Part shown: positions 10,522-64,000 of the stretch, one piece after another
Layout: every line of letters starts with the position of its first letter
Numbering within the stretch: the first letter of the stretch is position 1
From: Holophagaceae bacterium
GTDB lineage: Bacteria; Acidobacteriota; Holophagae; Holophagales; Holophagaceae
Reading direction: 5' to 3'
DNA: 64,000 bases
NCBI GenBank assembly: GCA_021286765.1
Contig: JAJTBS010000003.1
Coordinates: forward strand, 124,001 to 188,000
Program-made: the position numbers and the translations under genes
Notes under the pieces: generated by a model
The model's input: the letters and a program-made list of their open reading frames with translations, nothing else
Database searches by the model: none
What the model was told of the DNA's origin: nothing

Positions 10522-10607
10522 GGTCACTCGAAAGGGGGCGGAGATCCGGGGGAAGGCCACCGGGCCCAGCCGCGCCCAGGAAGGACACGGCCGGGCCCGG
10601 AAGGGCT

Positions 10608-11789: not shown

Positions 11790-11906
11790 GGTGCCTCCTG
11801 ATGTGATCGGTGAATTGGGACGCCAGCCCCCCCCGGAGCTGGCGTCCCTGCATCCAGCCTGGAATGGTGGGACGCCCGGAGAAAGCCCGGGTCACCCTCC
11901 CCCAGG

Positions 11907-13292: not shown

Positions 13293-13406
13293 GACCTGTC
13301 CTTTTCGTGAGGTTGGTCGGGGCGCTTGGCCGCGATCCAAGGGGTTTGGGAGGGAACATGGAACTGCAGAGGGTGGAGCTGGAAAGGCTGGTGGTGGCGG
13401 CGGGCC

Positions 13407-14201: not shown

Positions 14202-14236
14202 GTGAATCGTCCTTTGAATGGGAGGGTGATGCCGGA

Positions 14237-14554
14237 TCAGAGCTGCTTGGGGCAGGACACGCTGTCCTTGTTCCAGTAGATGAAGTTCGGGTGGGTGACG
14301 TCGGGGCCGACGATCTTCAGGTCCCCGATGGTGTTCGGGTGCGCCACGTCGGGGCCCACTGACTTGATTCCCACCGGGAAGATGGTCTTGACCAGGGCCA
14401 GGGCCCGGGCGGTGGCCTCGGCTTCGGCCAGGCCCGCGAAGAGGCCCGCTCCTGCGAGGGCGCTGGCGCCATTGGGCAGGGCGTAGCTGAGGTCCCAGCG
14501 GTCGCCGCTGGACGCGACCGTGAAGGTGATGTCGTTGTAGGTGAAGGTGGGCAT
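14237..14554 (-). CDS. unknown 105-aa protein with duplicated VGPDVxHPN motif
   Basis: I do not recognise this family. The first 60 residues look like a small alpha/beta unit (MPTFTYNDITFTVASS..., then an AEAEATARALALV helix). The C-terminal third repeats VGPDVAHPN and VGPDVTHPN 16 residues apart. There is no signal peptide, no cysteine pair and no zinc ribbon; a single late cysteine occurs in SCPKQL. It sits 15 bases downstream of the thiolase gene and 35 upstream of the SDR, the position where a small DUF35 partner is found in KAS III-thiolase complexes such as PhlACB or archaeal HMG-CoA synthase, but it shows no DUF35 features. A real gene is supported by spacing, codon use and operon position. 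Confidence 0.75.
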   Translation of the reverse strand: MPTFTYNDITFTVASSGDRWDLSYALPNGASALAGAGLFAGLAEAEATARALALVKTIFPVGIKSVGPDVAHPNTIGDLKIVGPDVTHPNFIYWNKDSVSCPKQL

Positions 14555-14569
14555 GGTCGGCCTCCGCCC

Positions 14570-15811: not shown

Positions 15812-15865
15812 GACCACTGTCCTTTCATGCTTGGAATGATTGGCCCGGCTTCCCGCGTGGGGGAA

Positions 15866-16858
15866 TCAGGACATGGTGAAAGCCACGGCCGCCTGGTTGT
15901 AGCCCACGCCCGAGCCGACCAGCACGAGCCGGTCGCCCGAGCGCAGCTTCTGCTTGGCGAGCGCGTCGTCGAGGGCCATCGGGAGGCAGGCGGAGCCGGT
16001 GTAGCCCCAGGCCTCCATGATGGTGTGGGTCTTCTCCATGGGCAGGCCGAGGTCGGCCATCACGAGGTCGATGGAGGGCTTGCGGACCTGGGTGAAGAGG
16101 ATGAAGTCGATGTCGGAGACGGCGAACCCCGCGCCGGCGGCCAGCTTGCGCACGACCCGGGGCCAGCCCTCGTGGTTGATCTCGGGAGGGTAGCGCTCGA
16201 GCATCTTCACCGTGGTGCGGCCCGCGGCCACGGATTCCTGCGTCGCCGGCTCATAGGTGCCGCCCGAGAAGATGCCCCAGTGCTTGTGGTAGGCACCGCC
16301 CGCCTGGGTTGCCGCGCCCAGAAAGCCGGGACGATCCGAGGCCACCAGCACCACGGCCCCGGCCCCGTCCCCGTAGAAGAAGCTCATGGGGTCGGCCGGG
16401 GAGGCCAGTTTGTGCATCAGGTAGGCGCCCACCACCAGCACGACCTTGATCGCCGGGTTGGTGGCGATCCAGCCGGCGCCCGAGGCCAGGGCGGTGGGGA
16501 AGGAGGCGCAGGCGCAGCCCACGTCGAAGGTGCCCGCGTTCACGGCGCCGAGCTTGTGCTGCAGGACCACGGAGGTGGCGGGGGTGATGTAGTCCGGCGA
16601 GTCGGTGCCGAGGATGATCAGGTCGACGTCCTCGGGGCGCAGGCCCGCGCGCTCCAGGGCCAGCTTCGCGGCCGGCAGGGCCAGGTCCGAGGTCGCCCAG
16701 TTCTCCGGGGCATGCCAGCGGCTGCGGATCCCCGAGGAAGCCTCCATCAGATCCACAAAGTCGGGAATGTGGGCGAAGCGCTGGCGGAGTTCGTCATTGC
16801 TGACCTCGATCTCGGGCAGATAGCAGCTTGTGGATGCAATCATCGCGAATCGGTTCAT
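15866..16858 (-). CDS. KAS III-like protein lacking catalytic His and Asn
   Basis: 330-aa FabH-family thiolase fold. The cysteine is kept (C117 in DVGCACASF). The His of the FabH HQAN region is absent (FILFTQVRKPSID, residues 252-264) and the Asn of GNTSAAS is replaced by Tyr286 (WGYTGSA). It therefore cannot use the normal decarboxylating-condensation triad. It may be an acyl-carrier subunit for the neighbouring thiolase. It is the first gene after the candidate TetR operator, so it leads the operon. The start at 16858 (MNRFAMIAST) is preferred over an upstream extension. Confidence 0.82.
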   Translation of the reverse strand: MNRFAMIASTSCYLPEIEVSNDELRQRFAHIPDFVDLMEASSGIRSRWHAPENWATSDLALPAAKLALERAGLRPEDVDLIILGTDSPDYITPATSVVLQHKLGAVNAGTFDVGCACASFPTALASGAGWIATNPAIKVVLVVGAYLMHKLASPADPMSFFYGDGAGAVVLVASDRPGFLGAATQAGGAYHKHWGIFSGGTYEPATQESVAAGRTTVKMLERYPPEINHEGWPRVVRKLAAGAGFAVSDIDFILFTQVRKPSIDLVMADLGLPMEKTHTIMEAWGYTGSACLPMALDDALAKQKLRSGDRLVLVGSGVGYNQAAVAFTMS

Positions 16859-16922
16859 GGATCCTCTCGGGGCCGGGCGGGCAGTCGGGGGCAGGCAGCA
16901 CAAGGCAGTTGGAGTTTAAAAA

Positions 16923-16939
16923 ACGAACAGTCGGTCGGT
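16923..16939. promoter_or_regulatory. candidate TetR-family operator
   Basis: ACGAACAGTCGGTCGGT is an imperfect dyad (ACnnACnG.CnGTnnGT) of the kind bound by TetR/FadR-type regulators of acyl-CoA metabolism. It lies 65 bases upstream of the first catabolic gene, in the gap after the tetR gene, on a locally AT-rich background. Position and symmetry support the call; binding is inferred. Confidence 0.45.
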
Positions 16940-17115
16940 TTTTGAGAAGATTCCTCTCCGGCCGTACCGGTGTCAACGGGAAACATGAATTTGTGTCCAG
17001 CGTGTGACGCAGGTCTCATTCCGGGGCTCGCCCTGGAGCGCCAAACTCAAGAAAAAAGGGAGTTTGGGCCAGGTGTGGACCGGCCAATGATTCCGATGTG
17101 GGCCTTGAATGCCGG

Positions 17116-17751
17116 TTATTTCCCGGAATCAGGCGGCCTCAGAAAGCCGCGGCGAAGGATCTTGGAGATCTCCTTCAGGGCCGCGGGGGTCTCCTGGCCC
17201 AGCTGGTCAGGAACCCCGAACAGGACCTCCACCGCGAAGTACTGGAGGAAGACGCGGCTCGCCAGCATCAGGGCCGTGGTGGGATCCAGTCCCGGCGCCA
17301 GCTGATCCTTCAGCTGGCCATCGGGGAAGCGGCGGCTCAGGAAGGTCTCGAAGCGGCCGGCCATGCCGGAGTAGAACTTCCGGATGTGGGTGCCATCGAA
17401 CTCGACCACATCCACGTAGATCAGGGCCACGTGCTGGCGGTAGGCGGTGACGCTCTCCCGGGCGGCCTCGGCCAAGGCCTCGAGGTCATCCGGGAAGGCC
17501 CCCGCAGCCAGGGCCTTGTTGAAAGGGAACTCCGGGGTGTCGATGGCCTCCCAGTACTGGTCGAGGAGGGTCCTGAACAGGGCCTCCTTGTCCGGGAAGT
17601 GGTGATAGACATTGCCCGTGGACAGCCCCGCCGCCTCGGCGATCTCCCGGATGCTCGTGCCCCGGTAGCCCTGCTTGGAGAAGAGCTGGAGGGCCGCCTC
17701 CAGGATCAAGCCGCGGCTTCGTTCGGACTTCTCCCCCTGGGTCAATTTCAA
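17116..17751 (-). CDS. TetR/AcrR-family transcriptional regulator
   Basis: 211-aa regulator with an N-terminal TetR helix-turn-helix (residues about 10-60: ILEAALQLFSKQGYRGTS, then TGNVYHHFPDKEALF) and a helical ligand-binding C-terminus. It is transcribed in the same direction as the operon that begins 257 bases downstream and is its probable repressor, released by an acyl-CoA or acid intermediate. The gap between them holds a TetR-like dyad. Confidence 0.88.
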   Translation of the reverse strand: MKLTQGEKSERSRGLILEAALQLFSKQGYRGTSIREIAEAAGLSTGNVYHHFPDKEALFRTLLDQYWEAIDTPEFPFNKALAAGAFPDDLEALAEAARESVTAYRQHVALIYVDVVEFDGTHIRKFYSGMAGRFETFLSRRFPDGQLKDQLAPGLDPTTALMLASRVFLQYFAVEVLFGVPDQLGQETPAALKEISKILRRGFLRPPDSGK

Positions 17752-17887
17752 CGGATCGCTCCCTGGGGGGAGATTACGAGCAGGGGCGAGCCGGGGTCAA
17801 GGTCGCCCAAGGCCTGCAGGGGCGAGCCTGCCAGGGGAAAACCAGGGACCGGCTGGATCGAGGCGATTTCCATCAGGAGACCGGAAT

Positions 17888-17940
17888 CCCAAAAAAGAAG
17901 CTGCCTGGCGGCGGCTGCACTGGCGGAGAGAGGGGGATTC
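17888..17940 (-). repeat. decayed copy of tRNA-Ser 3' end plus terminator
   Basis: This 53-base stretch matches 18081-18133 at 48 positions. The last 23 bases, covering the 3' end of tRNA-Ser(GCU) with its CCA, are identical. The copied terminator stem carries substitutions and pairs less well. The 140 bases between the two copies hold no gene that I can see. It looks like an att-site duplicate or the remnant of a tandem tRNA gene. Confidence 0.75.
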
Positions 17941-18089
17941 CCTCCGGGGCCACCGAGATGCGGCGTCCCCTCCGGCCGCACGAATCACGGGCACGCCGCT
18001 TACGGCTCCGCCAGCCCCTGGGCTGCCGAAGCCTGCGGCTACCTGCCAGTGATTCAGTGATTTCGAATCCCCCTGGATGCGCCAAAAAG

Positions 18090-18111
18090 GAAGCCGCCTC
18101 GCGGCGGCTTC
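18090..18111 (-). terminator. Rho-independent terminator of tRNA-Ser(GCU)
   Basis: Perfect 9-bp stem (GAAGCCGCC / GGCGGCTTC, 4-base loop) followed on the minus strand by a run of five T. It begins three bases after the CCA end of the tRNA gene. Confidence 0.85.
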
Positions 18112-18113
18112 AC

Positions 18114-18206
<93 letters not shown>

Positions 18207-18289
18207 AAGGCCTCCCAGATTACCGTTCCGGCCGGACTGGCACAAGGGTTCTTGCCCCGAGCCGCACCCACGCTCCAAGATGGAGGCAC

Positions 18290-18377
18290 GGAGAGTTGGC
18301 CGAGTGGTTGATGGCGTCAGTCTTGAAAACTGAAGACGTGAAAGCGTTCGGGGGTTCGAATCCCTCACTCTCCGCCA
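18290..18377 (+). tRNA. tRNA-Ser (anticodon UGA)
   Basis: Class II tRNA with acceptor stem GGAGAGT/ACTCTCC, discriminator G and encoded CCA. The anticodon loop CTTGAAA gives UGA (codon UCA). The variable arm and the GTTCGAATC T-loop are present. It diverges from tRNA-Ser(GCU), 83 bases away. Confidence 0.96.
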
Positions 18378-18378
18378 G

Positions 18379-18408
18379 ACCAGCGCCCCGCGAATGCGGG
18401 GCGCTGGT
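18379..18408 (+). terminator. terminator hairpin of tRNA-Ser(UGA)
   Basis: Perfect 13-bp stem (ACCAGCGCCCCGC / GCGGGGCGCTGGT) with a GAAT loop, starting one base after the CCA. There is only a weak T-containing tail. It may also end transcription of radC from the other side. Confidence 0.75.
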
Positions 18409-18438
18409 GTCATGAAGGTGGGGTGAGGATGATCCTGC

Positions 18439-19119
18439 CTATGACCTCCCGTCCCATCCCTCTGCGGCCCGGAAGCTGTGGTACCGATCGTTTCCCAGGA
18501 TGAGGTGATCGGCGAGGGGGACGCCCAGGGACTCGCCGGCGGCCTGGAGGCGGCGGGTGAGTTGGGTGTCCTCCCGGCTGGGGGTGGGATCGCCGCTGGG
18601 GTGGTTGTGGTAGGCCAGGGCCGTGGTGGCTCCGTACCGCAGGGCTTCGCGGAAGAATTCTCGCGGGCTGATGAGGGTGGCGGTGGCCGTGCCCTGGCTG
18701 AGGATGCGCTCGGCCAGCAGGTCACCCTTGGCGTTCAGGGCCAGCAGGCCGAAGCGCTCCTCGGTCCAGCCCTGGCAGCGGGGCAGCAGGTAGGCACCAG
18801 CCGCTCGGGGGCTGGTGATCCGGGGACGCTCGGCGCTGCGCTGCCCGCGCCGGGCCAGCTCCATGGCAGCCCAGAGTTGGCCCGCCTTGGCGGGGCCCAG
18901 TCCCGGATGCTCCAGCCAGTCGGTGAGACCGAGGCCCAGCAGTCCGGCGATGCCGCCGGTCCGGCTCAGGACCGACTGCGCCAGCTCCACCGCACTCTGG
19001 CCGCGGCGGCCCGTGCCCCAGAGCAGGGCCAGGAGTTCGGCATCGGACAGACCTTCGCCGTGGCCCGCCAGCAGGCGCTCGCGGGGGCGCTGATCCGGAG
19101 AGAGATCCAGGATTCGCAT
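18439..19119 (-). CDS. radC: RadC family JAMM-domain protein
   Basis: 226-aa RadC/UPF0758 protein. The N-terminal helix-hairpin region (RPRERLLAGHGEGLSDAEL) is followed by a JAMM metalloprotease-like domain with HNHPSGDPTPSRED. The biochemical role is unsettled; many RadC homologs are tied to DNA uptake, mobile elements or recombination. The start at 19119 is preferred over a 102-codon upstream extension that is only a shadow. It follows comEA and two pseudopilin genes in the same direction, consistent with a DNA-uptake context. Confidence 0.9.
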   Translation of the reverse strand: MRILDLSPDQRPRERLLAGHGEGLSDAELLALLWGTGRRGQSAVELAQSVLSRTGGIAGLLGLGLTDWLEHPGLGPAKAGQLWAAMELARRGQRSAERPRITSPRAAGAYLLPRCQGWTEERFGLLALNAKGDLLAERILSQGTATATLISPREFFREALRYGATTALAYHNHPSGDPTPSREDTQLTRRLQAAGESLGVPLADHLILGNDRYHSFRAAEGWDGRS

Positions 19120-19129
19120 GGGGCTTCCT

Positions 19130-19576
19130 TCAGCAGGCCGTCCAGGCGCGGAGGAGGGGGCGGTAGCGCAGCAGCTCCACGGAACCGGAGAGATCGAGGC
19201 GGAGGCAGAGCGCCTGGCGGCCGTGGTGGAGGAACCAGACGTTGGCCGAGGCCCGGCGCTGGGGCATGACGGTGATGGGCTGCGGATGGCCGTTGCGCCA
19301 GCCGCTGTCGGCGAGGCTCGGCGGCAGGGGAACCGCCGAAGGGCGGCCCCAGCACACCCCCTCCGGCAGGCGCACGGACAGGCGTCCTTCGCTGGCGGGA
19401 CGGCTGGGCTCCAGCACCACGGCACGCCCGTGGGTGGTGGCCAGGCGGAAGGCGAGGTGGAGGCTGCGGCGCAGCTCCGATTGCGCGGCCCGGAGGGGCG
19501 GGCAGAGGGGGGCGGGCAGGAGGGCGGCGGCGCTGCGGCCCAGGCGCTGGAGGAGGCGGTTCGTGGACTCGCGCAT
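19130..19576 (-). CDS. headless pseudopilin paralog
   Basis: 148-aa protein whose residues from about 28 onward align with the globular part of the upstream pseudopilin (shared patterns: QSELRRSL..AF.LA, PLPP, NVWFLHHGRQALCLRL against SVWFLHDGREALCMRL). It lacks the prepilin leader and hydrophobic helix; the N-terminus is instead MRESTNRLLQRLGRSAAALL. The ATG overlaps the upstream stop (TGATG at 19578-19574), so the two are translationally coupled. Probably a soluble or loosely attached partner of the pseudopilin; no known family assigned. Confidence 0.75.
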   Translation of the reverse strand: MRESTNRLLQRLGRSAAALLPAPLCPPLRAAQSELRRSLHLAFRLATTHGRAVVLEPSRPASEGRLSVRLPEGVCWGRPSAVPLPPSLADSGWRNGHPQPITVMPQRRASANVWFLHHGRQALCLRLDLSGSVELLRYRPLLRAWTAC

Positions 19577-20079
19577 CACACCCTCGTCCACTTCAGGAGG
19601 TCCCGGCGCCATCGCAGCACTTGGAGCTGGCCGTGCCCAGACAGTCGCATGCACAGGGCTTCTCGACCGTCGTGCAGGAACCAGACGCTGGCCAGGGCCG
19701 TGTGCCGAGGCGTCACCGTGAGGACCGGATGGGCTTCGCCAGTGGTGGCCGCCACGGCGGGCTTCTCCATGTCCGGTGGCAGCGGGATGGTGGCAGGCTT
19801 GCCCCACTTGATCCTGCGGCTGAGCTGCACCGGCAGGTGCTCGCCCTCACCGCTGGCTTTGCCAAGGGCCACGGTCACGTTGGTGCCCCGGGCCCGGGCC
19901 AGGGTGAAGGCCTGCTCCAGGCTGCCGCGGATTTCCTGATGCGCGGCGGAGAGCTCCGTGGCGCCTGTGTCCCAGAAGGAGGAACCCACGACCGCGAGGA
20001 TGGCGATCACGGTCATCACCACAGTGAGTTCCAGCTGCGAGGTGCCCCGCTGGGCGGATCGTCGGCAGCCTGGACGCAT
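19576..20079 (-). CDS. GspH/FimT-like pseudopilin
   Basis: 167-aa type IV pilin-like protein. The prepilin peptidase site is RG/TSQLELTVVMTVIAILAVVGS with E5 and a hydrophobic helix, followed by a GspH/FimT-like globular domain. Such minor pseudopilins prime type II secretion or transformation pili. It is nine bases downstream of comEA and coupled to a paralog lacking the pilin helix, suggesting a role in a DNA-uptake pilus. Confidence 0.82.
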   Translation of the reverse strand: MRPGCRRSAQRGTSQLELTVVMTVIAILAVVGSSFWDTGATELSAAHQEIRGSLEQAFTLARARGTNVTVALGKASGEGEHLPVQLSRRIKWGKPATIPLPPDMEKPAVAATTGEAHPVLTVTPRHTALASVWFLHDGREALCMRLSGHGQLQVLRWRRDLLKWTRV

Positions 20080-20088
20080 CGCAGCCTC

Positions 20089-20403
20089 CTACTTCTTGGT
20101 GGCCGCAGGACGCGGCGCAGGGGTGGCGGCCAGGTACGGCTTCAGCTTGGCGAAGGACTTCTCGCCGATGCCTTTGACGTTCATCAGCTCCTCGGGGCGC
20201 TGGAAGCCGCCGTGCTGCTTGCGGAAGCTGACGATCCGCTCGGCCGTCTTCTGGCCCACGCGGGGCAGCTGCATCAGCTCGGTGACCGTGGCGGTGTTGA
20301 GGTTCACCGGGCGTTGGGGAGCCCGTGCGGCGCGGTCGGGGGCCGCGGAGAGGGGAAGGGCCAAGGCGAGTGCCAAAGCCAGGGTGGTGAAGGGGTTGGA
20401 CAT
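20089..20403 (-). CDS. comEA: ComEA-like helix-hairpin-helix DNA-binding protein
   Basis: 104 aa with a signal peptide (MSNPFTTLALALALALPLSAA) and a tandem helix-hairpin-helix domain (VNLNTATVTELMQLPRVGQKTAERIVSFR..., GIGEKSFAKLKPYL). ComEA-type proteins bind incoming double-stranded DNA in the periplasm during natural transformation. First gene of the comEA-pseudopilin-paralog-radC group; transcription probably starts in the AT-rich island upstream. Confidence 0.88.
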   Translation of the reverse strand: MSNPFTTLALALALALPLSAAPDRAARAPQRPVNLNTATVTELMQLPRVGQKTAERIVSFRKQHGGFQRPEELMNVKGIGEKSFAKLKPYLAATPAPRPAATKK

Positions 20404-20449
20404 GGTTGCCTCCTTTCAGGCAGGCCATATCCATCGAGGTTTGTGCCAA

Positions 20450-20610
20450 TTCATAAGTTGTTTATTATCTTTATAAAAAATCACATATAAAAAAATTTAG
20501 TCATTTAATAATGACAAAATAATATTAATTTTTAATAAATTGTTTTATTTAAATAATTAATTTTTGTAATTTAATTAAGAATATTTTTTAAAACATGACA
20601 TCTATTTTGC
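20450..20610. other. AT-rich island between comEA and ahcY
   Basis: About 160 bases of nearly pure A/T (long runs of A, T and TAAT) inside an otherwise GC-rich chromosome. There is no open reading frame. It lies between two divergent units and can hold UP elements and -10 boxes for both, but its length and purity exceed a normal promoter. Possible roles are nucleoid-protein binding or an easily melted region. Confidence 0.7.
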
Positions 20611-20663
20611 TCTGACGGATTCCTCGAATCCGATTCCTGTCAGAACGGATTATCCTGAGAGAG

Positions 20664-20748
20664 TCCGAGGAGCGCTGCAGGACCCGGCCGCTTGGTGGCG
20701 AGGGATCTCAGGCTCGGATGCTTCCCCTCAGGAACGGCGCTCACCTCA
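20664..20748 (+). ncRNA. S-adenosylhomocysteine (SAH) riboswitch
   Basis: The conserved SAH-riboswitch blocks are present in order: CCGAGGAGCGCTGC (20665-20678), CTCAGGCTCGG (20708-20718) and AACGGCGCTCACC (20733-20745). CCGAG pairs with CTCGG, and GAGCGC with GGCGCTC. It precedes ahcY, the gene most often controlled by this aptamer. A downstream stem, CACCTCA (20742-20748) with TGAGGTG (20766-20772), shares bases with the aptamer and could be the switching helix. Known family behaviour: SAH binding turns ahcY on. Confidence 0.92.
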
Positions 20749-20806
20749 ACCCTGCACTGGGTCGATGAGGTGGCTCCCCGCCCGTCGCCCGTTCCGAGGA
20801 GGTCCC

Positions 20807-22204
<1,398 letters not shown>

Positions 22205-22223
22205 TTACCCTGGGTTTTGCATT

Positions 22224-22275
22224 CCAGCTGAATCGCTGCGCGATTCAGCTGGCACGGCGCCGTGAGGCGCCGTGC
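22224..22275 (+). terminator. double hairpin terminator after ahcY
   Basis: Two adjacent perfect stems: CCAGCTGAATCG/CGATTCAGCTGG (22224-22252, 5-base loop), and GCACGGCGCC/GGCGCCGTGC (22252-22275, GTGA loop), the second followed by TTGTTTATT. Confidence 0.88.
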
Positions 22276-22330
22276 TTGTTTATTGCCAACCGCTTGGTCA
22301 GGATGAAGCCACTCACCTTTGGGAGCACTC

Positions 22331-23494
22331 ATGCGCTCGTGGACCCAGGGCCTTCTCCTCCTCGTGGCCGTGGCGCTGGCAGGGGCGGGTGGGGCCGCAG
22401 CCGTGCTGTGGTACCAGGGGCGGAAACCTGCCGTGGTGGCGCCGGCCCCCGCTTCTGAGCCGCCGCCCATGGCTCCCGCCCCACTGGCTGTGCCGGAGGC
22501 GCCCCCAGCCCCGGCGCCTTCCACCGAGGACATCGTGGCCAAGGCCATGCCCGCCGTGGTGGTGGTGGAGACCTCCTCGGGTCGGGGCAGCGCCTTCTTC
22601 GTGGACCGCGACCGGCTCATCACGAACCACCATGTGGTGGTCGGCCAGAGCTACGTCAAGGTGCGCATGGCTGATAACAGCACCCTCGACGCCCGCATCT
22701 TGACCACGGCCCCCGACTACGACTTGGCCCTGCTGCGGCTCATGCAGCCCGGGCCCGACCGGCCCTTCCTGGCCTTGGGCAGCATCAAGGATGTGCGCCA
22801 GGGCCAGGAAGTGCTGGCCATCGGCACGCCCCATGGCGTCTTTCAGAACACGGTGACGCGGGGGATCGTCAGCAGCCTCCGCCAGTTGGAAAAGGTGGTG
22901 GTACTCCAGACGGACACGGCCCTGAACCCCGGCAACAGCGGCGGCCCCCTCATCGACCACGCGGGCCGCGTGGTGGGCATCAACACCATGGGCTTCCGTG
23001 GCAGCCAGGGCCTGAACTTTGCCGTGGCCATCGACCATGCCCGGGCCCTCATGGAGGGACGGTCCCTCCAACTCGCCTTCACCCCGCCGACGGTGGATGG
23101 CGGCATCAGAGGCCTCCTTCCAGGCGGCGGCGCCAGCGAGTCCGACCAGATCCGCGAGGAGGGCACCAAGCGCTACGCCGCGCAGTTGGCTGGGGTGGCC
23201 CGCGCCGCAGACCAGATGGAATCGGCCTTCGCCTCTTTCCTCGCCTACCACTGGGATGGGCGGGTCGTGGGCACCTTCGAGCGGAACTTCTACGCCCTGT
23301 GGGAGCGGGGCGCCCTGCAGGGGAAGCCCGTGAAGGGCTACGAAGCCAAGCTCGCTGAGCTGACCCAGGCGGCCGACAAGCTGCGCGAACTCTCCCGCCA
23401 GGCCGAGGACCAGGCCCGCCGGGCCGATGTGTTCCCCGGCACCCGCCGCGACCTGCGGCAGCGGTACCGGCTGGACCATCGGGGCTGGGACTGA
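22331..23494 (+). CDS. membrane-anchored trypsin-like serine protease
   Basis: 387-aa S1C/HtrA-like protease. An N-terminal membrane or signal segment (LLLLVAVALAGAGGAAAVLW) and an Ala/Pro-rich linker precede the trypsin fold with the catalytic triad H (ITNHHVVVG), D (DYDLALLRL) and S (NPGNSGGPLI). No PDZ domain follows; the C-terminal 130 residues are helical and of unknown role. It probably acts in periplasmic protein quality control. ATG at 22331 is used because GGGAG lies six bases upstream. Confidence 0.85.
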   Translation: MRSWTQGLLLLVAVALAGAGGAAAVLWYQGRKPAVVAPAPASEPPPMAPAPLAVPEAPPAPAPSTEDIVAKAMPAVVVVETSSGRGSAFFVDRDRLITNHHVVVGQSYVKVRMADNSTLDARILTTAPDYDLALLRLMQPGPDRPFLALGSIKDVRQGQEVLAIGTPHGVFQNTVTRGIVSSLRQLEKVVVLQTDTALNPGNSGGPLIDHAGRVVGINTMGFRGSQGLNFAVAIDHARALMEGRSLQLAFTPPTVDGGIRGLLPGGGASESDQIREEGTKRYAAQLAGVARAADQMESAFASFLAYHWDGRVVGTFERNFYALWERGALQGKPVKGYEAKLAELTQAADKLRELSRQAEDQARRADVFPGTRRDLRQRYRLDHRGWD

Positions 23495-23565
23495 CGAACT
23501 GTGACCGAGGTCCGGGCATCGTGCCGGTGAAGCCGTCAGGATGATCCGATCCTCCGGAGGTGCCC

Positions 23566-24948
23566 ATGAGGGCCTGGCTGTTGGGAATCCTCATGGTCAT
23601 CGGCGGGGTGGCGCTGGTCCTCGGCCTCTGGCTGCTGGGCTACCACCTCAGCGGCAAGTGGGCCTTCCAGCGCTGGCAGGCCCAGCGCATCGCCGTGGGC
23701 GACCGCTTCGGCTGGCAGGCGCTGGCGCCGCCGCGTGTTCCCGCGGACCAGAACTTCGCCGAGGCGCCGCTGGTGAAGGGCTCCATCGCTCCGGATGGCG
23801 TGGTGGATGCGCGTTTCGCGGCGCTCACCCTGCCCAACGGGGCCCAGAATCGCCTGGCCAACTGGATGGAGGGGCAGCGTGACGACCTGAACACCATTGC
23901 GCGGGCCTGCGGAACGGCGGACCTCCAGACCGTGTTCAAGCCTCTGGAGCCGATCTTCCGCGAACTGGACCAGGCGACCCGGCGCAACGGCTGCTGCTTC
24001 CCGGACTCCTGCCAGAACGGGGGAATTCCTGCGCTCCTCGGCTTTCGGGCGGCCATGCGAACCCTGCGGGTGCGGGCCATCGCCAGCCTGCGCGCAGGCC
24101 AGGCTGATCAGGCCTTCGCGGACCTGCAGACCGGCCTGCGGCTGGCCGACCACCTGAAGGCCGAACCCCACCTCATCAGCGCCCTCCTCCGGGTGGCCAT
24201 CCTGAACATCACCCTGCAAGTGGCCTGGGAGGGGCTGGAGGATCACCGCTGGAGCGCCTCGCAGCTGGCCACCCTCCAGGCGGACCTGGCCCGCATCGAT
24301 CTGCTGCCCAACCTGAAGCTGGCCTGGCAGGCCGAGCGCGAGTTTGGCATCACTGCGCTCACGGCCCTGGCCGAGAACCGGTCGACGCCCTCCTTCGAAC
24401 TCGAGGGCCGGAGCGCCAAAGCTTGGCCAGGTCCCCTCGGCCGCGGGTGGGCCTACCGCAACCTGCTGATGTACTGCCGCTACATGACGACCTTGATGGA
24501 GGCCCAAGACCCTCAGACCCACCGCGTTCATCCCGACCGGATCATCAGCGGCGCAGCCTGGGACCGGTCACTCCGGTACCGGTTCGACCTCAGTCTTGCC
24601 CGGATCGGCATTCCCGCCCTCTCGGATCAGGTCCAGCGCTTTGCGCGGCTCCAGGCCTTCATTGATGAGGGGGTGGTGGTCTGCGCCCTGGAGCGGCATC
24701 GCCTGGAGAAGGGCCAGTACCCGGAGCGCCTGGAGGCCCTGGCGCCGGCCTACCTCCAGGCCCTGCCCCATGACCTGGTGACGGGCGGATCGCTGCCGTA
24801 CACCCGCAAGGGCGAGAGCTTCGCGCTGTACCAGGTGGGCTGGGACGGGCAGGACAACGACGGGATCATGGCCTGGACGGGCGAGGGCAGGGAACGCAAA
24901 CTCGATCCCACCCGGGGCGACTGGATCTGGCCCCACGCCAGCCGCTGA
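23566..24948 (+). CDS. membrane-anchored protein of unknown function
   Basis: 460-aa protein that I cannot assign. One N-terminal transmembrane helix (residues about 3-25) is followed by a large, mostly helical soluble domain. A central helical repeat reads LRVRAIASLRAGQADQAFADLQTGLRLADHL-like, and a cysteine-rich CCFPDSC patch precedes it. The C-terminal region (ERHRLEKGQYPERLEALAP..., PDLVTGG-like) resembles domains seen in large-genome soil bacteria. ATG at 23566 has GGAGG five bases upstream. Confidence 0.7.
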   Translation: MRAWLLGILMVIGGVALVLGLWLLGYHLSGKWAFQRWQAQRIAVGDRFGWQALAPPRVPADQNFAEAPLVKGSIAPDGVVDARFAALTLPNGAQNRLANWMEGQRDDLNTIARACGTADLQTVFKPLEPIFRELDQATRRNGCCFPDSCQNGGIPALLGFRAAMRTLRVRAIASLRAGQADQAFADLQTGLRLADHLKAEPHLISALLRVAILNITLQVAWEGLEDHRWSASQLATLQADLARIDLLPNLKLAWQAEREFGITALTALAENRSTPSFELEGRSAKAWPGPLGRGWAYRNLLMYCRYMTTLMEAQDPQTHRVHPDRIISGAAWDRSLRYRFDLSLARIGIPALSDQVQRFARLQAFIDEGVVVCALERHRLEKGQYPERLEALAPAYLQALPHDLVTGGSLPYTRKGESFALYQVGWDGQDNDGIMAWTGEGRERKLDPTRGDWIWPHASR

Positions 24949-25056
24949 TCGCAACGGTCCCTGTTCCTTCTCCGGCTGAAACGTTGCGCATTCCAGATAA
25001 CTGGGCGCTGCACGGTGCCCAGCCATTTGTATGATCAAGGATTCCCCGGAGCCCCC

Positions 25057-25587
25057 ATGGCCGACGAGAAGAAGGAACCCTGGCTGAACCTGCTGGCGCT
25101 CACCACCGTGATCCTGGCGGTCTGCGCGACGCTGGCCACCTTCAAGGGTGGGGGCTATTCCACCAAGACGGTGCTGAACCAGGCCATGGCCTCGGACCAG
25201 TGGGCCTACTACCAGGCCAAGGGGATCAAGGGAAACCTCTACGAGGTCGAGGCCCTGCGCCTCCGCCGGGAGATCGAGCTGGCGCCGAAGGCCTCCGTGG
25301 CCATCCTGGAGAAGAGCCTGGCCGACGTGGAGAAGAAGGTCGCCAAGTACGAGGGCGAGAAGACGGACATCTTCAAGAAGGCCACGGCCTTCGAGGAGGC
25401 CAAGGCCGACGCCCAGCGGCACGGCGCCCCCTTCGGGCTGGCCGTGATCTTCCTGCAGATCGCCATCCTGCTCTCCTCCATCGCCGCCCTCATGAAGAAG
25501 CAGCCCGTGTACTGGGCGGGCCTGGCGGTGGGCATCGTGGGTCTCGTGTACTTCATCAACGGCTTCTACCTGTTCTTCCCCGTCTGA
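25057..25587 (+). CDS. DUF4337-like membrane protein
   Basis: 176-aa protein with an N-terminal membrane helix (LNLLALTTVILAVCATLATF), a coiled-coil central region (about residues 55-115, rich in E/K) and two C-terminal membrane helices ending in INGFYLFFPV. This layout is that of DUF4337 proteins, function unknown. The stop overlaps the start of the Nudix gene (TGATG), so the two are coupled. Confidence 0.75.
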   Translation: MADEKKEPWLNLLALTTVILAVCATLATFKGGGYSTKTVLNQAMASDQWAYYQAKGIKGNLYEVEALRLRREIELAPKASVAILEKSLADVEKKVAKYEGEKTDIFKKATAFEEAKADAQRHGAPFGLAVIFLQIAILLSSIAALMKKQPVYWAGLAVGIVGLVYFINGFYLFFPV

Positions 25588-26030
25588 TGTGGGCGCTCAC
25601 CGTTGCGGCGGTCGTCGAGCGGGGGGGGCGCTTCCTCTTTGTAGAAGAGCCGGACAAGGTGACGGGCCTGCCCGTGATCAATCAGCCCGCAGGGCATGTG
25701 GAACCCGGTGAGTCGGTGCTGGATGCCGTGCGGCGCGAGGTGCGCGAGGAGACGGGGCTCAACTTCACGCCCGAGGCCATCGTGGGCCTCTATCCCCTGA
25801 AGGCCGCCAACGGACAGGACTACTTCCGCGTCTGCTTCACGGGCTCGGTGCCGGAGGGCGCCGTGGCCGCCCCGGAGGATCCCGACATCCTTCGCTGCCA
25901 CTGGCTCAGTCGGTCTGAGTTGGAGGCCGCTCGCTTGCGCTCGGGCTGGGTGCTGCGCTGTCTGGAGGATGCCCTGGCGGGCCGGCGCCACCCGCTGGAC
26001 CTGGTGGCGGAGATCCGCGTCGAGCGTTAG
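25587..26030 (+). CDS. Nudix hydrolase (NudJ-like)
   Basis: 147-aa Nudix protein with the motif GHVEPGESVLDAVRREVREETGL-type box (G-x5-E-x7-REVREE), starting near residue 36. Such proteins hydrolyse nucleoside diphosphates linked to X; NudJ-like members act on thiamine- or nucleoside-pyrophosphates. The start overlaps the stop of the preceding DUF4337 gene. Convergent with the next gene, 13 bases away. Confidence 0.85.
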   Translation: MWALTVAAVVERGGRFLFVEEPDKVTGLPVINQPAGHVEPGESVLDAVRREVREETGLNFTPEAIVGLYPLKAANGQDYFRVCFTGSVPEGAVAAPEDPDILRCHWLSRSELEAARLRSGWVLRCLEDALAGRRHPLDLVAEIRVER

Positions 26031-26043
26031 CGACTGCGACGGC

Positions 26044-26520
26044 TTACGGCTTCCGCAGCCAGTACGCGGCCACCACGGAGGTGAGAAAACCGGTCACCAC
26101 GGTGCCGATGGCGCCTGCCATGGCGCTGGCCCTGGGCGTCTGCATGTGGGCCTGGGCCTTCACGGCGGCCTCGATCTGCGCGGCGCTCATCCCCTTGGCG
26201 GCCATCATCTGGCGTCCCAGGGCCTCCAGGTCCTGGAAGTAGTGGGGGAATTGCACGGCAGTCAGGTAGTAGCTGTTGGCGAAGATGAGCATGGAGCCCA
26301 GCAGGGAGATGCTGACGCCGGTCCACACCTGGCGGCCATAGCCCGTGGTGGACGCGGATTTCCGCAGGAAGGCGACCAGGATCCCGATCTGGATGGGGAT
26401 GACCAGCCAGAAGAGATACAGCAGCGTCGGGTGCTTGTACATCCCCGACTTGGCCATGACCAGGGTCCAGGCGGCCACGGAGGCGCCCAGCAGGAAACCG
26501 CCGCGGATGGTTGGGTGCAT
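26044..26520 (-). CDS. DUF4199-like membrane protein
   Basis: 158 aa with four predicted membrane helices (GGFLLGASVAAWTLVM, LLYLFWLVIPIQIGILVAF, ISLLGSMLIFANSYYL and a C-terminal AIGTVVTGFLTSVVAAYWL) and an amphipathic loop QMMAAKGMSAAQIEAAVK. Matches the DUF4199 pattern; function unknown. The start at 26520 is preferred over a longer frame with poor composition. Confidence 0.72.
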   Translation of the reverse strand: MHPTIRGGFLLGASVAAWTLVMAKSGMYKHPTLLYLFWLVIPIQIGILVAFLRKSASTTGYGRQVWTGVSISLLGSMLIFANSYYLTAVQFPHYFQDLEALGRQMMAAKGMSAAQIEAAVKAQAHMQTPRASAMAGAIGTVVTGFLTSVVAAYWLRKP

Positions 26521-26607
26521 GACGACCTCGAAGGATATTCCAGTGTGGTGCCCGAGGCTGGCTCGACGCAATCCGTGCACTGAACGGGATGTTGGAGCGG
26601 GTCCGCT

Positions 26608-27351
26608 TCAGAAGATGTAGCTGCCGCCGTTGACGGGCAGGGTGGCGCCCGTGACGAAGCCGGTCTGCACCAGGCCTGCCACGGCCTCGGCCACGTCCTG
26701 GGCCAGGCCGTTGCGGCGAAGGGGCGTGTGGGCGGCGGCCGCGGCCTTGTGCGGCTCGGGCAGCTGGGCGGTGGCGTCCGTGAGGGTGAGGCCCGGCGCC
26801 ACGGCATTCACGCGGATGCCCAGGGGACCCAGCTCGTAGGCCAGGGCCCGCACCAGGCCCTCCAGCCCGGCCTTGGCGGCGCTGTGGGCGCAGAAACCCT
26901 GGCCCGGGTTCCGGGCCAGGCCGCTGGTGATGGCCACGATGGAGCCGCCGCCCCGCTCGCGCATCTGGGGCAGCACGGCCCGGCAGCCATGGAAGGCCGC
27001 GCCCAGCTCACCCAGCACCTTGGCCTCGAAGGCCTCCCAGGGATAGTCGGCGAAGCCGGTCATGGGAAAGCCGATGGAGGCGTTCAGCACCAGGATGCCG
27101 ATGGGCCCCAGCTCCGCCTTCACGGTGGTGGCCATGGCCTCCAGCTGGGTGCGGTCCCGGGCATCCGCCTTCACGGCCAGGGCCCGGCCCCCCGCCGCCC
27201 GGATCTCCGCCACCACACCCTGGGCGGCGGCCTCCGAGCCGAAGTAGTTCACGGCCACGGCCGCGCCCTGGGCCGCCAGGGCCTGGGCGATGGCCGCGCC
27301 GATGCCGCGGCTGGCCCCGGTGACGAGGGCGACTTGACCCGTGAGTGCCAT
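26608..27351 (-). CDS. short-chain dehydrogenase with His at the catalytic Tyr position
   Basis: 247-aa FabG-like SDR with TGASRGIGAAIAQ and the NASIG region. The usual Y-x3-K catalytic pair reads HSAAK (FCAHSAAKAGL), so tyrosine is replaced by histidine, while the serine (ITSG) and lysine remain. It may have altered chemistry or serve as a binding protein. The start at 27351 follows GGAGGATCC. Confidence 0.83.
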   Translation of the reverse strand: MALTGQVALVTGASRGIGAAIAQALAAQGAAVAVNYFGSEAAAQGVVAEIRAAGGRALAVKADARDRTQLEAMATTVKAELGPIGILVLNASIGFPMTGFADYPWEAFEAKVLGELGAAFHGCRAVLPQMRERGGGSIVAITSGLARNPGQGFCAHSAAKAGLEGLVRALAYELGPLGIRVNAVAPGLTLTDATAQLPEPHKAAAAAHTPLRRNGLAQDVAEAVAGLVQTGFVTGATLPVNGGSYIF

Positions 27352-27388
27352 GGATCCTCCTGGATGGCCGAGCATCGATCCGTCGAGG

Positions 27389-27895
27389 TTAGCCCATCAG
27401 CTCGGCGATGCCCATGCCGCCGGTGGCGCCGGCCTCGCCCGTGAGGGCCCGGCGCAGGTAGCCGGCCTGGCCCAGGTGGAAGGCCAGGTGGGTGGCCAGG
27501 TGCACCAGGAAGCGCGCGGTGGCCGGCCGGTGACCCAGCAGCTCCTGGGGATAGGGCTGGTCGAGGGTTTCGGCGCGCAGGGATTCCAATCCGGCTTCCA
27601 CCTCGGCCGCGGCGGCCTCCAGCAGGGCGGCCACCTCGGCCCGGGTAACGGAGCGCCGGGCGAACTCCGCGTCGCGCTGGCGCAGGTAGCCCGAGCCGCC
27701 CAGCACCGCGCCCACGAAGTGGCGCAGGTTGCCCGCCACGTGCAGGGCCAGGTTCCCCGCGCTGTTGGTGATGCCCGGCACCGTCTGCCAGAGCGCGGCA
27801 TCATCGGGGAAGGCCTCGACCTCGCGGATGAAGCAGCGGAGGTCGCGGCGCAGGACGACGAGGAGGTCGGCGGCGAGGGGCGTCATGGCGACCAT
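27389..27895 (-). CDS. DinB-like four-helix-bundle protein
   Basis: 168-aa DinB/YfiT-type helical bundle with the three-histidine metal site in LALHVAGNLRHFVG and HLATHLAFHLGQAGYLRR. Members are metal-dependent thiol-transferases or stress proteins. Start may be 27895 or the ATG at 27886. It diverges from the glutaminase gene with about 26 bases between them, so their promoters overlap. Confidence 0.78.
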   Translation of the reverse strand: MVAMTPLAADLLVVLRRDLRCFIREVEAFPDDAALWQTVPGITNSAGNLALHVAGNLRHFVGAVLGGSGYLRQRDAEFARRSVTRAEVAALLEAAAAEVEAGLESLRAETLDQPYPQELLGHRPATARFLVHLATHLAFHLGQAGYLRRALTGEAGATGGMGIAELMG

Positions 27896-27921
27896 CCTAA
27901 GGCCTGTGGGATGCTGGAGCC

Positions 27922-28833
27922 ATGGACCTTCAAGCCCTCCTCGACGACCTGGCCCGCGAAGCCGCGCCCTATGCGGCGCAGGGCAAGGTGGCGGACTACA
28001 TCCCGGCCCTGGCGGCGGTTGATCCCTCGCATTTCGGCCTCGCCCTGGCCACCGTGGACGGGCAGCTCCACGGCAGCGGCGACTGGCGGACCCCCTTCTC
28101 CATCCAGAGCGTGTCCAAGGCCTTCTCCCTGGCCCTGGTGCTGGCCCGCGATGGCGAGGCGCTGTGGCGGCGGGTGGGCCGCGAGCCCTCGGGCAACCCC
28201 TTCAACTCGCTGGTGCAGCTGGAATACGAGAAGGGCATCCCCCGCAACCCCTTCATCAACGCCGGGGCGCTCATTCTCATCGATCGCCTGCTCTCGCTCA
28301 CGGGCGACTCCTGGGGCACCCTGCGGGACTTCCTCCGCGCCGAGAGCGGCAACGCGGCCCTGGACCTTGATGCGGAAGTCGCCGCCTCCGAGGCCAGCCA
28401 CGGCCACCGCAACGCCGCGCTGGCCCACTTCATGGCGAGCTGCGGCAACCTGGAGAACCCGGTGGAGCAGGTGCTCGACCACTACTTCCGCCAGTGCGCG
28501 CTCACCATGAGCTGCGCCGACCTCGCGAAGGCCGGGCTCTTCCTGGCCAACCACGGCCTGCGCGCCGATGGCTCCCGCCTGCTGAGCCGCAGCGAGGCCA
28601 AGCGCATCAACGCGATCATGCTCACCTGCGGCACCTACGACGCGGCGGGCGACTTCGCCTACCGCGTGGGCCTGCCGGGCAAGAGCGGCGTGGGTGGCGG
28701 CATCCTCGCCGTGCTGCCCGGCCGCGGGGTGCTCTGCGCCTGGAGCCCCGCCCTGGATCTCCATGGCAACAGCGTGGCGGGCGTGGAGGCGCTGGACCGC
28801 TTCACCACGCGGACTGGCTGGTCCGTCTTCTGA
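27922..28833 (+). CDS. glsA: glutaminase A
   Basis: 303-aa serine-dependent glutaminase converting L-glutamine to glutamate and ammonia. The beta-lactamase-like active site SVSK is in PFSIQSVSKAFSLAL near residue 63, with NPFNSLVQLEYEKGIPRNPFINAGA and GIKSGVGGGI-type (LPGKSGVGGGILAVLPG) segments typical of GlsA. Usual family length. Confidence 0.95.
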   Translation: MDLQALLDDLAREAAPYAAQGKVADYIPALAAVDPSHFGLALATVDGQLHGSGDWRTPFSIQSVSKAFSLALVLARDGEALWRRVGREPSGNPFNSLVQLEYEKGIPRNPFINAGALILIDRLLSLTGDSWGTLRDFLRAESGNAALDLDAEVAASEASHGHRNAALAHFMASCGNLENPVEQVLDHYFRQCALTMSCADLAKAGLFLANHGLRADGSRLLSRSEAKRINAIMLTCGTYDAAGDFAYRVGLPGKSGVGGGILAVLPGRGVLCAWSPALDLHGNSVAGVEALDRFTTRTGWSVF

Positions 28834-60961: not shown

Positions 60962-61624
60962 ATGCTTTCCGACGTCCTGAGGTCGCGCCTCGCCCTGGCG
61001 CGGGGTGCCCTGCTCCCCTGCCGGGGCTGCCTGGGACCCGTGGGCGAAGGCGCGGAGGCGGGCCTGTGCGTCCGCTGCTGGGGCGGCCTGCGGCCGCTTC
61101 CCGAGGGGCGCTGTCCCCGCTGCGCCCTGGTGCATGCCGAGGCGGACTGCCCCGAGGCCACGGCCTGGGACCATGGTGACGCCCTGTGGGACTACCACGG
61201 TGGCCGCCCGCCGCTGGGGGCCCTGCTGCTGCCGGGCATCAAGCAGGGTGAGACCGGCTGGCGGAGGGCGCTGCTGGGGCGCTTGGCGGAGGCGCCCCTG
61301 CCGGACTGGGCGGCGCAGGTGGACCGCGTGACCGCGGCGCCCAGCGCCTGGCCCCAGCGCCTGCTTCGCGGCTTCGATCTCAGCGCCGAGGCGGCCGAAC
61401 TGATCGCCAGGCGCCTCGACCGTCCCTTCGAACCCCTGCTCGCCAAGGGCTGGCTTCGCGGGCGTCAGGCCTCGCGCACGGAGTCCCAGCGCCGCCGGTT
61501 GCCGAAGGGGGCCATGGCCCTGCGGCGCGGGGCCGCGCCCCGGGGCCTCATCCTCCTGGTGGACGATGTCTGGACCACGGGTTCCTTGACCCGGATGAGT
61601 ATTCATATTTCCGGAGATTTCTGA
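60962..61624 (+). pseudogene. comF: comF, 3' end truncated by a mobile element
   Basis: ComF-type phosphoribosyltransferase with an N-terminal zinc ribbon (CRGC ... CVRC ... CPRC) and the PRPP loop LLVDDVWTTG. From about 61586 the reading frame passes into foreign, lower-GC DNA and ends after TGSLTRMSIHISGDF, so the last 30 or so residues of the normal family are missing. ComF is needed for DNA uptake in transformable species. Other explanations, such as a frameshift, fit less well because composition changes at the same point. Confidence 0.82.
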
Positions 61625-62016
61625 CTCCAGGACTACTCGTTTAGCCGTTTTTCATGCAGCAAGGCGAGAAAACATCTGCTCCCCTCCTGGAGGGGTGAAC
61701 CTCATATTTCATACTTATGGCCAGTTGATGAGGCTCGGTAGATTTGTGCATTTTCAAGTGATGAAGTCAATCTAGGACGAACAATAATCTTTCGCATTGA
61801 ACTGGATTCTGATTCAATCAAGGAAGGTCAGGAACCCTGTGCAAATCCAATGATGGGTCTGCTCTCTACCTGGCGATGAGGAGCCACTAGGAATTCCGAG
61901 TAGGGCTGACAAACAGACCTTCTTCCTAGTTTGGCGCCGGCGTTTCACCGGACACCTTAATCGCAGTGGACGAGAATGACTCAGAACACTCTGATTTGGG
62001 TTCTGGTGGAGGCTGC
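61625..62016. other. non-coding left arm of the island
   Basis: No convincing gene. Contains a short CCCCTC/GAGGGG hairpin (61681-61695) and AT-richer DNA, expected to include the recombinase recognition end and the promoter of the first recombinase gene. Confidence 0.6.
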
Positions 62017-63399
62017 ATGTTTGTGAGCCTACGCTGCCGCGTGTTCTTCGATGAGACTGGTGTCTTCACTGAGATCCAGGTGATTTACACGCCCACAGGG
62101 TGGCTGATGCCATTGGTGGAATATTTACTCGCCCACAGCCACACGCGGAGCCGGAACTGGATGGTCAAGGTGTGCCACGCCATGAGGCTGTTCCTGGAAT
62201 ACATGGTTGCCAACCCCAACGAGAAGCGAACCTATCAGCTTTTCCAGAATTTTGCCCAGCGACTCTACACCGGCACGTTCAATCGGCAAACCGGCCTCGA
62301 CCCTTCTTGGCTCTGCTGGAAACCCAGATCCCCTTCCGAGGCCGGCAGGATCATCTGCAACCTAACGAACTTCTGGAGGTGGTGGAATGCCCTGCATCCG
62401 GCCGCAGCTGAAGTGAATCCTCTGTATGCGGGCAGTGGCTACGACCAGTTAGTCTCCGAGGCGGCCTACCAGTACCGGCGAGATCGGGCCTTCCTCGGCC
62501 ACACGTGGAAGCCGCACTTGGATCCATCAGATTCGACCAGTTCCACGGGAGGTCATTTAGTCCAGGCTCGCAGAAAGAATAGGGTAGGGACCTCCAACCC
62601 TCCGGCCTTCCCGGACGAAAGATTCATGGAGTTATTGACAGAGGGTTTCGTCGTCGGTGGCCGTCCAAATTTTCGGGACATGCTCATTACGTTGCTGCTC
62701 CACGGGGCTGGTTTTCGTTACTCGGAACCATTCCATCTCTACTTAACCGATGTACTAATTAATCCGAAGAATCCCAAACAACTACTGGAAGTCCGAATTC
62801 ATCAGCCCTCGGATGGGGACGCGCCGGAGGACCCGACATGGCTGGATGAGCGCGGCAACCTCAGGAGAGGCAATCGAACGACGTATCTCGCGGAGCGTTT
62901 TGGCTTGGCTCCGCGGAACCTATTGTTGGACGGCCGCCGTGCCGGTTGGAAGGGCAGCCTTCTCGATGAAAACTCATATATGCGGGCCTATTGGTTCATT
63001 CCGAAGTTCGGTGAGGTATTTCTAACTCTTTGGTACCGCTACATGGAGCAGCTCGCGCAACTGGATCGTTCCCATCCCTTTGCCTGGGTCAACTTCACCC
63101 AGGAGCCTAAGGGCGGAATGTACACCATGGGGCAATATCGGCGGGCACATACCCGCGCCTGTCAGCGGATCGGGCTGGTGATCGGGAAGGAGGTCGGGAC
63201 GACGCCTCATGGGCATCGCCACGCCTATGGTCGTCGCCTGGTGGCAGGTGATTTTCAGCCCTCCGAAATCAAGATGTTCATGCACCACCATTTGCTGGAA
63301 TCGCAGGGTGTTTACACCACACCCACCCCAAAGCAGGTCATGGATGCCCTCGCGGAGGGGGCCGAACGACTCCATCAGATGTACAGGAGAGACCTGTGA
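62017..63399 (+). CDS. GmtY-like tyrosine recombinase
   Basis: 460-aa recombinase with a full tyrosine-recombinase set: R in LLLHGAGFRYSEPFHLYLTDV, HxxR in TPHGHRHAYGRRL, H in MFMHHHLLESQ and nucleophile Y in GVYTTP. The TTPHGHRHAYG block and the overall length match what I recall of GmtY from Gamma-Mobile-Trio elements. ATG at 62017 has GGAGG upstream, whereas the frame-opening GTG at 61966 has none. The stop overlaps the next start (GTGA at 63396-63399). Confidence 0.8.
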   Translation: MFVSLRCRVFFDETGVFTEIQVIYTPTGWLMPLVEYLLAHSHTRSRNWMVKVCHAMRLFLEYMVANPNEKRTYQLFQNFAQRLYTGTFNRQTGLDPSWLCWKPRSPSEAGRIICNLTNFWRWWNALHPAAAEVNPLYAGSGYDQLVSEAAYQYRRDRAFLGHTWKPHLDPSDSTSSTGGHLVQARRKNRVGTSNPPAFPDERFMELLTEGFVVGGRPNFRDMLITLLLHGAGFRYSEPFHLYLTDVLINPKNPKQLLEVRIHQPSDGDAPEDPTWLDERGNLRRGNRTTYLAERFGLAPRNLLLDGRRAGWKGSLLDENSYMRAYWFIPKFGEVFLTLWYRYMEQLAQLDRSHPFAWVNFTQEPKGGMYTMGQYRRAHTRACQRIGLVIGKEVGTTPHGHRHAYGRRLVAGDFQPSEIKMFMHHHLLESQGVYTTPTPKQVMDALAEGAERLHQMYRRDL

Positions 63400-64000
63400 A
63401 GAGGCCCACGAGAGTCTCACGGCTTCCCGAGTTCGAAGATTCCAAGACCCCTTGGCGCCAAAACGATCCAACCTTGGGCTGGATCCTCCGGGACTTTCCC
63501 CAGTTGGAGCCTTGGCGTGACTTGGCCATCAAGTGGTTCGCCACGCTAAAGGTGCTTTCACGGGACCCCCTTCAAGCCCTCTCCGTGTTTCTAGACCGTT
63601 TCATGGTCCAGCAGGGACTTCCGACAAACCCGGACATGATGTTGCGTAAGGAGACAACTATTCCAGATTTTTATGGAACGGCATGTCCTCGGAGCCGGCA
63701 TGGGGTTAAGTGGAACAACCACATTAGAGCTTTCTTGGAGTTCGTCCTTGCTGAGCGATACTCGCATCTCGATCCCATCACAGGCCTGAGGTCCCTCGAT
63801 ACTTCCTACTGGAACCCCGTACCCAAGCGAGACTTCAAGACCTTCGAGATCATCCCCGACCGGCCGAAGGGCCTCAATCGGACCACAGACCAGAATTTCG
63901 GCTGGGTCCAAGACAAGTACCCACAACTTGAACCTTGGAGGCTCCTATCGTCAGAATGGATCCAGGGACCGGGCGCGCAAAACGGAGGCATCGATAAGAA
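63396..64000 (+). CDS. GmtZ-like integrase partner, partial
   Basis: Frame stays open from GTG 63396 to the window end (201 codons, no stop). It contains two similar segments, LGWILRDFPQLEPWRDLA and FGWVQDKYPQLEPWRLLS, about 125 residues apart, with a DPxTGLRSLD segment between. The catalytic part would be downstream. Its coupled position after the tyrosine recombinase fits the second recombinase of a GmtYZX-type trio; alternatively a Tn554-like TnpB. Confidence 0.6.
   Translation, partial: MKRPTRVSRLPEFEDSKTPWRQNDPTLGWILRDFPQLEPWRDLAIKWFATLKVLSRDPLQALSVFLDRFMVQQGLPTNPDMMLRKETTIPDFYGTACPRSRHGVKWNNHIRAFLEFVLAERYSHLDPITGLRSLDTSYWNPVPKRDFKTFEIIPDRPKGLNRTTDQNFGWVQDKYPQLEPWRLLSSEWIQGPGAQNGGIDK

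Follow-up and report, generated by a model that had tools for sequence, protein, structure and literature searches.

The stretch analysed here (the window) comprises 64,000 nucleotides of a Holophagaceae bacterium, G000:C8:124001-188000 in a 3.15-Mb draft genome, and it closes inside an island that interrupts the gene comF. The genes gmtY and gmtZ, both encoding tyrosine recombinases, stand near the left end of this island. The second runs off the window at 64000, so that its remainder, the third gene gmtX and all further genes lie in the continuation of the contig (L002, G000:C8:184001-204000; window position = L002 position + 60000). The whole island measures 16,395 bp, from window position 61582 to the equivalent of 77976 (L002:1582-17976), once the contig is extended past the window. 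The trio gmtY-gmtZ-gmtX is that of Gamma-Mobile-Trio (GMT) islands, which reportedly were described only recently, by Mahata et al. in 2024, as carriers of anti-phage and toxin genes.

All three trio proteins exceed the curated NCBI equivalog cut-offs of their hidden Markov models (Table 1). Their genes are arranged in the canonical Y-Z-X order, with open reading frames (ORFs) overlapping by 4 bases (gmtY/gmtZ) and 29 bases (gmtZ/gmtX), and both order and overlaps agree with those of plasmid copies in which NCBI annotates gmtY and gmtX. An ATG at 62017 within gmtY agrees with the start of most homologues. The sequence-only reading had proposed a tyrosine recombinase coupled to a second one, the pair resembling gmtY-gmtZ, and had named a GmtX-like gene as the partner to look for; both ORFs proved real, the profile scores confirmed the likeness, and the third gene is there. 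We aligned GmtY and GmtZ to copies annotated on plasmids of Aeromonas, Cupriavidus, Pseudomonas and Burkholderia. The catalytic residues, assigned from the motif, are invariant in these alignments (R251, H415, R418, H441 and Y450 in GmtY; R395, H602, R605, H629 and Y637/Y638 in GmtZ), and because the sets are complete both recombinases look active. The trio proteins share only about 44-61% identity with the aligned copies (GmtZ 45-48%). Most GmtZ have a single N-terminal repeat of about 130 amino acids (aa); both acidobacterial ones have two copies of it, and the protein of Acetobacterium (L126) has five. The AlphaFold model predicts GmtX to be mainly helical, built around a long central helix and ending in a part that resembles a winged helix.

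The target gene can be followed on both sides of the island. comF reads normally through ILLVDDVWTTG and then passes into foreign DNA, the ORF stopping at 61624; beyond the far end comF picks up again at ACCACAGGCACCACCCTGCTGCGCTGG..., its 3' part, which had been expected there. When joined, the flanks give a ComF of 234 aa that aligns without gaps to those of two relatives (L037 and L042; 78-79% identity). A long comF match was found in 36 of the 40 other genomes of the genus, and the gene is unbroken, in the frame DDVWTTGTTLLR...FRA, in all 29 same-genus loci that we read. The two halves thus belong to one gene, into which 16,395 bp have been inserted, because the joined flanks restore ComF and the comF of relatives is continuous. 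A simple frameshift in comF, one of two outcomes that would have spoken against an island, is ruled out by the same continuity and by the 16.4 kb between the halves; the other, a second ORF unrelated to GmtZ and lacking a third partner, is excluded by the trio itself. No synteny match was found for the gene downstream of comF in the loci of relatives, which are short. The content of guanine and cytosine (GC) falls at the left junction from about 0.68-0.73 to 0.50-0.57 and recovers to 0.65-0.75 about 16.4 kb further on; within the island it is 0.48-0.57, and the flanks are mostly 0.65-0.75. The earlier claim of a low-GC element beginning inside comF at 61586 was therefore right, the exact left end lying four bases away. 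The insertion would break ComF in its phosphoribosyl pyrophosphate (PRPP)-binding motif, which should abolish ComF function.

The cargo, said in the sequence-only reading to lie just outside the window, is indeed there, between gmtX and the right end of the island, and includes a Gabija defence system. The Gabija genes are adjacent and full length, GajA with AAA and TOPRIM parts and GajB resembling UvrD-like helicases, and nothing notable differs at the sequence level from known Gabija. A cassette of three genes follows, coding for a type II-like DNA methyltransferase, a GHKL ATPase/histidine kinase and a 592-aa protein; its last two genes have no PADLOC match. The cassette also occurs on one plasmid each of Hymenobacter and Rhizobium etli, with methyltransferase identities of 39-41%, and so in three phyla, while the 592-aa protein was found in just one other genome of our phylum sample. 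Association alone makes this undescribed cassette a candidate defence system. Pfam, NCBIfam and PADLOC matches pointed to no genes for conjugation or of phages in the cargo, and the island contains no credible known RNAs. A phage origin was rejected, as no relatives were found among 2.9 million viral contigs, a set in which near-identical records may be hidden.

Table 1. Coordinates of the island, its genes and the compared elements (plain numbers are window positions).
Feature	Position	Strand	Evidence or remark
comF 5' fragment	60962..61581	+	broken in PRPP-binding motif VDDVWTTG
Island, part within the window	61582..64000	+	contig extension, GC, profile matches
Island left end	61582..61612	+	TTCCTTGACCCGGATGAGT then ATTCATAT; ends aligned by eye
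gmtY, tyrosine recombinase, 477 aa	61966..63399	+	NF040693, 469.6 bits (cut-off 340); catalytic residues invariant
gmtZ, large tyrosine recombinase (Integrase_2), 1013 aa	63396..66437 equivalent (L002:3396-6437)	+	NF047926, 877.3 bits (cut-off 600)
gmtX, 224 aa	L002:6409-7083	+	NF040692, 198 bits (cut-off 40)
gajB	L002:7252-9156	-	PDLC00103, 760 bits, residues 7-631
gajA	L002:9159-11141	-	PDLC00090, 817 bits, residues 1-658
Type II-like DNA methyltransferase	L002:11495-12982	+	
GHKL ATPase/kinase, 805 aa	L002:12987-15404	+	N-terminal GHKL ATPase, C-terminal histidine-kinase ATPase domain
592-aa protein	L002:15391-17169	+	no Pfam, NCBIfam or PADLOC match
Island right end	last base L002:17976		...CTATGGCGAAATGGGGTTAAGAC
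comF 3' fragment	L002:17977-18068 (77977 to about 78068 equivalent)		begins CACAGGCACCACC...
Three-gene cassette, three phyla	L002:11495-17169; L164:4621-10377; L165 from 4535		
Bare trio element	L090 and L091, 7995-13403		
Second acidobacterial element, 19.2 kb	G390rc 9312-28468		splits tRNA-Thr(TGT) in T loop

The features by which a GMT island is recognised are thus found together: three scores above cut-off, Y-Z-X adjacency, a discrete island whose site is empty in relatives, and defence cargo. According to PMC12715929, the cargo of GMT islands includes Gabija-type defence, as here. What differs is the acidobacterial host, the comF target, the second N-terminal repeat of GmtZ and the low identity to the aligned copies. 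Among other mobile elements, Tn554 (TnpA, TnpB, TnpC) shares the combination of an ordinary and a large tyrosine recombinase with a small third protein, a likeness of organisation only. Tn554 has a 6-bp core or footprint at its ends (PMC10214605), to which the 6-bp cores located in 19 elements here may correspond; its hosts and targets are other ones, and GmtZ is large (about 870-1000 aa). The TnpC-like family PF19776 occurs at one locus only among 149 genomes. Strand-biased circularizing elements (SEs)/GInts likewise combine a pair of catalytic tyrosine recombinases with imperfect terminal inverted repeats, and they have a 6-bp footprint that may have its counterpart here, but they also encode Tfp/GinC, a fourth protein that carries a core-binding domain (PMC10214605), and none was seen in this island. 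RIT elements resemble the trio in that their three recombination genes form a tight operon (PMC3414803), yet all three RIT proteins are tyrosine recombinases of 315-410 aa (PMC10214605), far from the size of GmtZ, whereas GmtX matches no recombinase domain.

The ends of such elements are best defined in Paraburkholderia caffeinitolerans, in which one contig holds two 100% identical copies of 5,409 bp (L090/L091), trio only, at two sites. This identity indicates that the trio moves without cargo, and the element appears to be a bare, recently moved GMT transposon. The two copies fix the terminal motif, left TTATTCCCCCCAAC-n5-ATACATAG and right CTATGTAC-n-GTTAGGGTATAAGTC (approximate inverted repeats of each other), which is common to betaproteobacterial copies, some of them bare 5.4-kb trios. 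The island in comF has the same end layout in letters of its own, and its left-end motifs TTCCTTGACCCGGATGAGT and ATTCATAT have the same 19-base spacing as those of other GMT elements. The left core, CACGGG, consists of the last six bases of the comF 5' fragment (61576-61581). Paired 6-bp cores read CACGGG/CACAGG at this island and CGGTTC/CTGTTC at the second acidobacterial element (in genome G390), matching at five of six bases in both. Agreement at five or more bases was found in 5 of 19 elements (a sixth joins them when L076 is given a one-base offset), versus 3 of 342 mispaired combinations. Differing cores would be expected if one side carried the footprint of the previous site, a rule described for Tn554 and strand-biased elements (PMC10214605). 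A 9-bp direct repeat, GACCACnGG, was at one point taken for the duplication; it was replaced by the 6-bp core CACRGG once the spacing of the ends was compared with other elements. Two related elements (L086 and L087), inserted into the same gene, point in opposite directions, and their 6-bp flanks are reverse complements (ATGTTG/CAACAT; AACATG/CATGTT), not direct repeats.

The flanks of the elements also tend to be complementary to each other. Among the 17 elements with both ends recognisable, the mean stem score was 11.2 versus 6.1 for mispaired flanks, and scores of at least 8 were reached by 14 of the 17 versus 18% of the mispaired flanks. Twelve elements (L072, L073, L074, L076, L079, L083, L085, L088, L099, L107, L133 and L138) sit at the centre of a dyad, mostly an intrinsic terminator, as do most betaproteobacterial copies; in L107, for example, the terminator halves surround the element as AAAAGCCCCG...|element|...CGGGGCTTTT. 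The T arm of the tRNA hit in G390 obeys the same rule.

The trio is not restricted to Gammaproteobacteria. Among 84,980 named genomes, a single scan recovered 80 GmtZ loci, with the Y-Z-X order in nearly all; the majority are from Betaproteobacteria, and the remainder include Gamma- and Alphaproteobacteria. Six further phyla (Bacillota, Verrucomicrobiota, Myxococcota, Thermodesulfobacteriota, Riflebacteria and Bacteroidota) contain loci in which every trio protein tested passes its cut-off, given that outside Pseudomonadota some contigs are cut, not every trio member was tested and several loci are from metagenome bins that are possibly mis-binned. The loci of Bacillota are from isolates of Clostridium viride, Butyrivibrio and Acetobacterium. 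By these profile matches the trio appears to span at least eight bacterial phyla, and 'gamma' understates its range. The copy in comF does not by itself extend the known range, as had been supposed, because the trio is already annotated in Betaproteobacteria and passes the cut-offs in further phyla. In the GmtZ tree the two acidobacterial sequences form deep, separate lines beside a mainly betaproteobacterial group and off the marine gammaproteobacterial clade, on long branches whose exact placement is unsure. This separation suggests that the acidobacterial copies are no recent gift from a gammaproteobacterium. A GmtZ from a Crocinitomicaceae metagenome bin labelled Bacteroidota (L115) is nested among the marine gammaproteobacterial ones, and its trio is either a recent transfer or part of a mis-binned contig.

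The host itself is not the gammaproteobacterium that the name GMT, though not the models, implies. The draft G000 lacks a 16S rRNA match; the Acidobacteria-specific probe HoAc1402 (PMC6252331) matches exactly in five genomes of the same genus and, of two genomes tested from the same family, in one. The host is an acidobacterium, and size, GC and family structure suggest a Geothrix-like member of the Holophagae. GmtZ passed the cut-off in only 2 of 396 genomes of the phylum, G000 and G390, the latter from another genus of the same family. The genome G390 is on one contig, and the site of its element is empty in two genomes of its genus (G423 and G430), in which tRNA-Thr(TGT) is intact. About 210 bp inside its right end, this island holds an intact tRNA-Thr(TGT) of its own (G390rc 28183-28257, within L065), which may replace the broken gene. 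Two further genes (136 aa and 696 aa; G390rc 14482-16979) are coupled directly after its gmtX and are followed by its own cargo.

We infer a Tn554-like mechanism, with two tyrosine recombinases and an accessory protein. GmtY and GmtZ, with GmtX as accessory, would act on the short end motifs, synapse the ends and make cuts 6 bp apart both there and in the target. Strand exchange through a circular intermediate would then leave a 6-bp core on each side, as in Tn554 and strand-biased elements, and the circle junction is expected to read ...GGGGTTAAGAC-CACRGG-TTCCTTGACCC.... The cargo may repay its carriage by blocking phage.

Several observations weigh against this reading. The AlphaFold model of GmtX found no fold match in the PDB with Foldseek, and the protein has no Pfam match to TnpC-like families and none to a recombinase domain. 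The comF site lacks a dyad, its stem score being 5 against a median of 11.5 at the 17 other sites, so that the hairpin-target rule does not hold there. Cores differ in 13-14 of the 19 elements, which the footprint model allows and does not prove, and the right ends of most other elements were set by the motif and not by an empty site. Finally, a search of G000 found a single copy of the island, and no movement was observed. The single copy, together with the one-base difference between left and right cores, could also be taken to indicate a degenerate, immobile remnant retained only for its defence cargo. We consider such a remnant unlikely, because the trio genes are intact, above cut-off and carry all catalytic residues, and because neither an end nor a comF half is missing.

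A tyrosine recombinase at one end, and a sister element in a tRNA gene, a usual target of integrases, would also suit an ordinary island of the integrative and conjugative, integrative and mobilizable (ICE/IME) or phage-satellite type, whose integrase merely resembles GmtY. The presence of GmtZ and GmtX in canonical order runs counter to this, as do the curated profile results, the cargo devoid of conjugation or phage genes and the lack of relatives in viral contigs, making it very improbable. Contamination or misassembly, in which a proteobacterial GMT contig was fused to an acidobacterial one, seems more improbable still: the genome is a draft with an estimated contamination of 1.68%, but both comF halves flank the island in frame on one contig of 366 kb, GmtZ has low identity to the aligned copies and stands separate from the proteobacterial groups in the tree, and a second genome of the family, itself on one contig, has another copy. 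In summary, we give a probability of about 0.88 to the feature being the left end of a complete GMT island in an acidobacterium, mobile by the mechanism above. As GMT biology the island is ordinary; its host is unexpected.

These elements are far more widely spread, and their targeting more regular, than their name suggests, and part of this may already stand in the original GMT study. We place even odds on a broader view, in which the trio is an ancient, pan-bacterial engine of the Tn554 type that can move bare (5.4 kb), lands at the centres of dyads (mostly terminators), at tRNA T-arms and at a few gene sites with low cost to the host, and becomes a defence island when cargo is gained between gmtX and the right end. 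If this is true, most GMT insertions, being at dyads or terminators, would cost the host little. Taken together, the motif at the ends, the core and the bias towards terminator dyads give an explicit rule for boundaries, with which cargo becomes countable and recombination testable in the laboratory. With complete GMT islands in Acidobacteriota and trios in Bacillota, Verrucomicrobiota and others, searches for defence genes next to gmtX should be workable well outside Proteobacteria.
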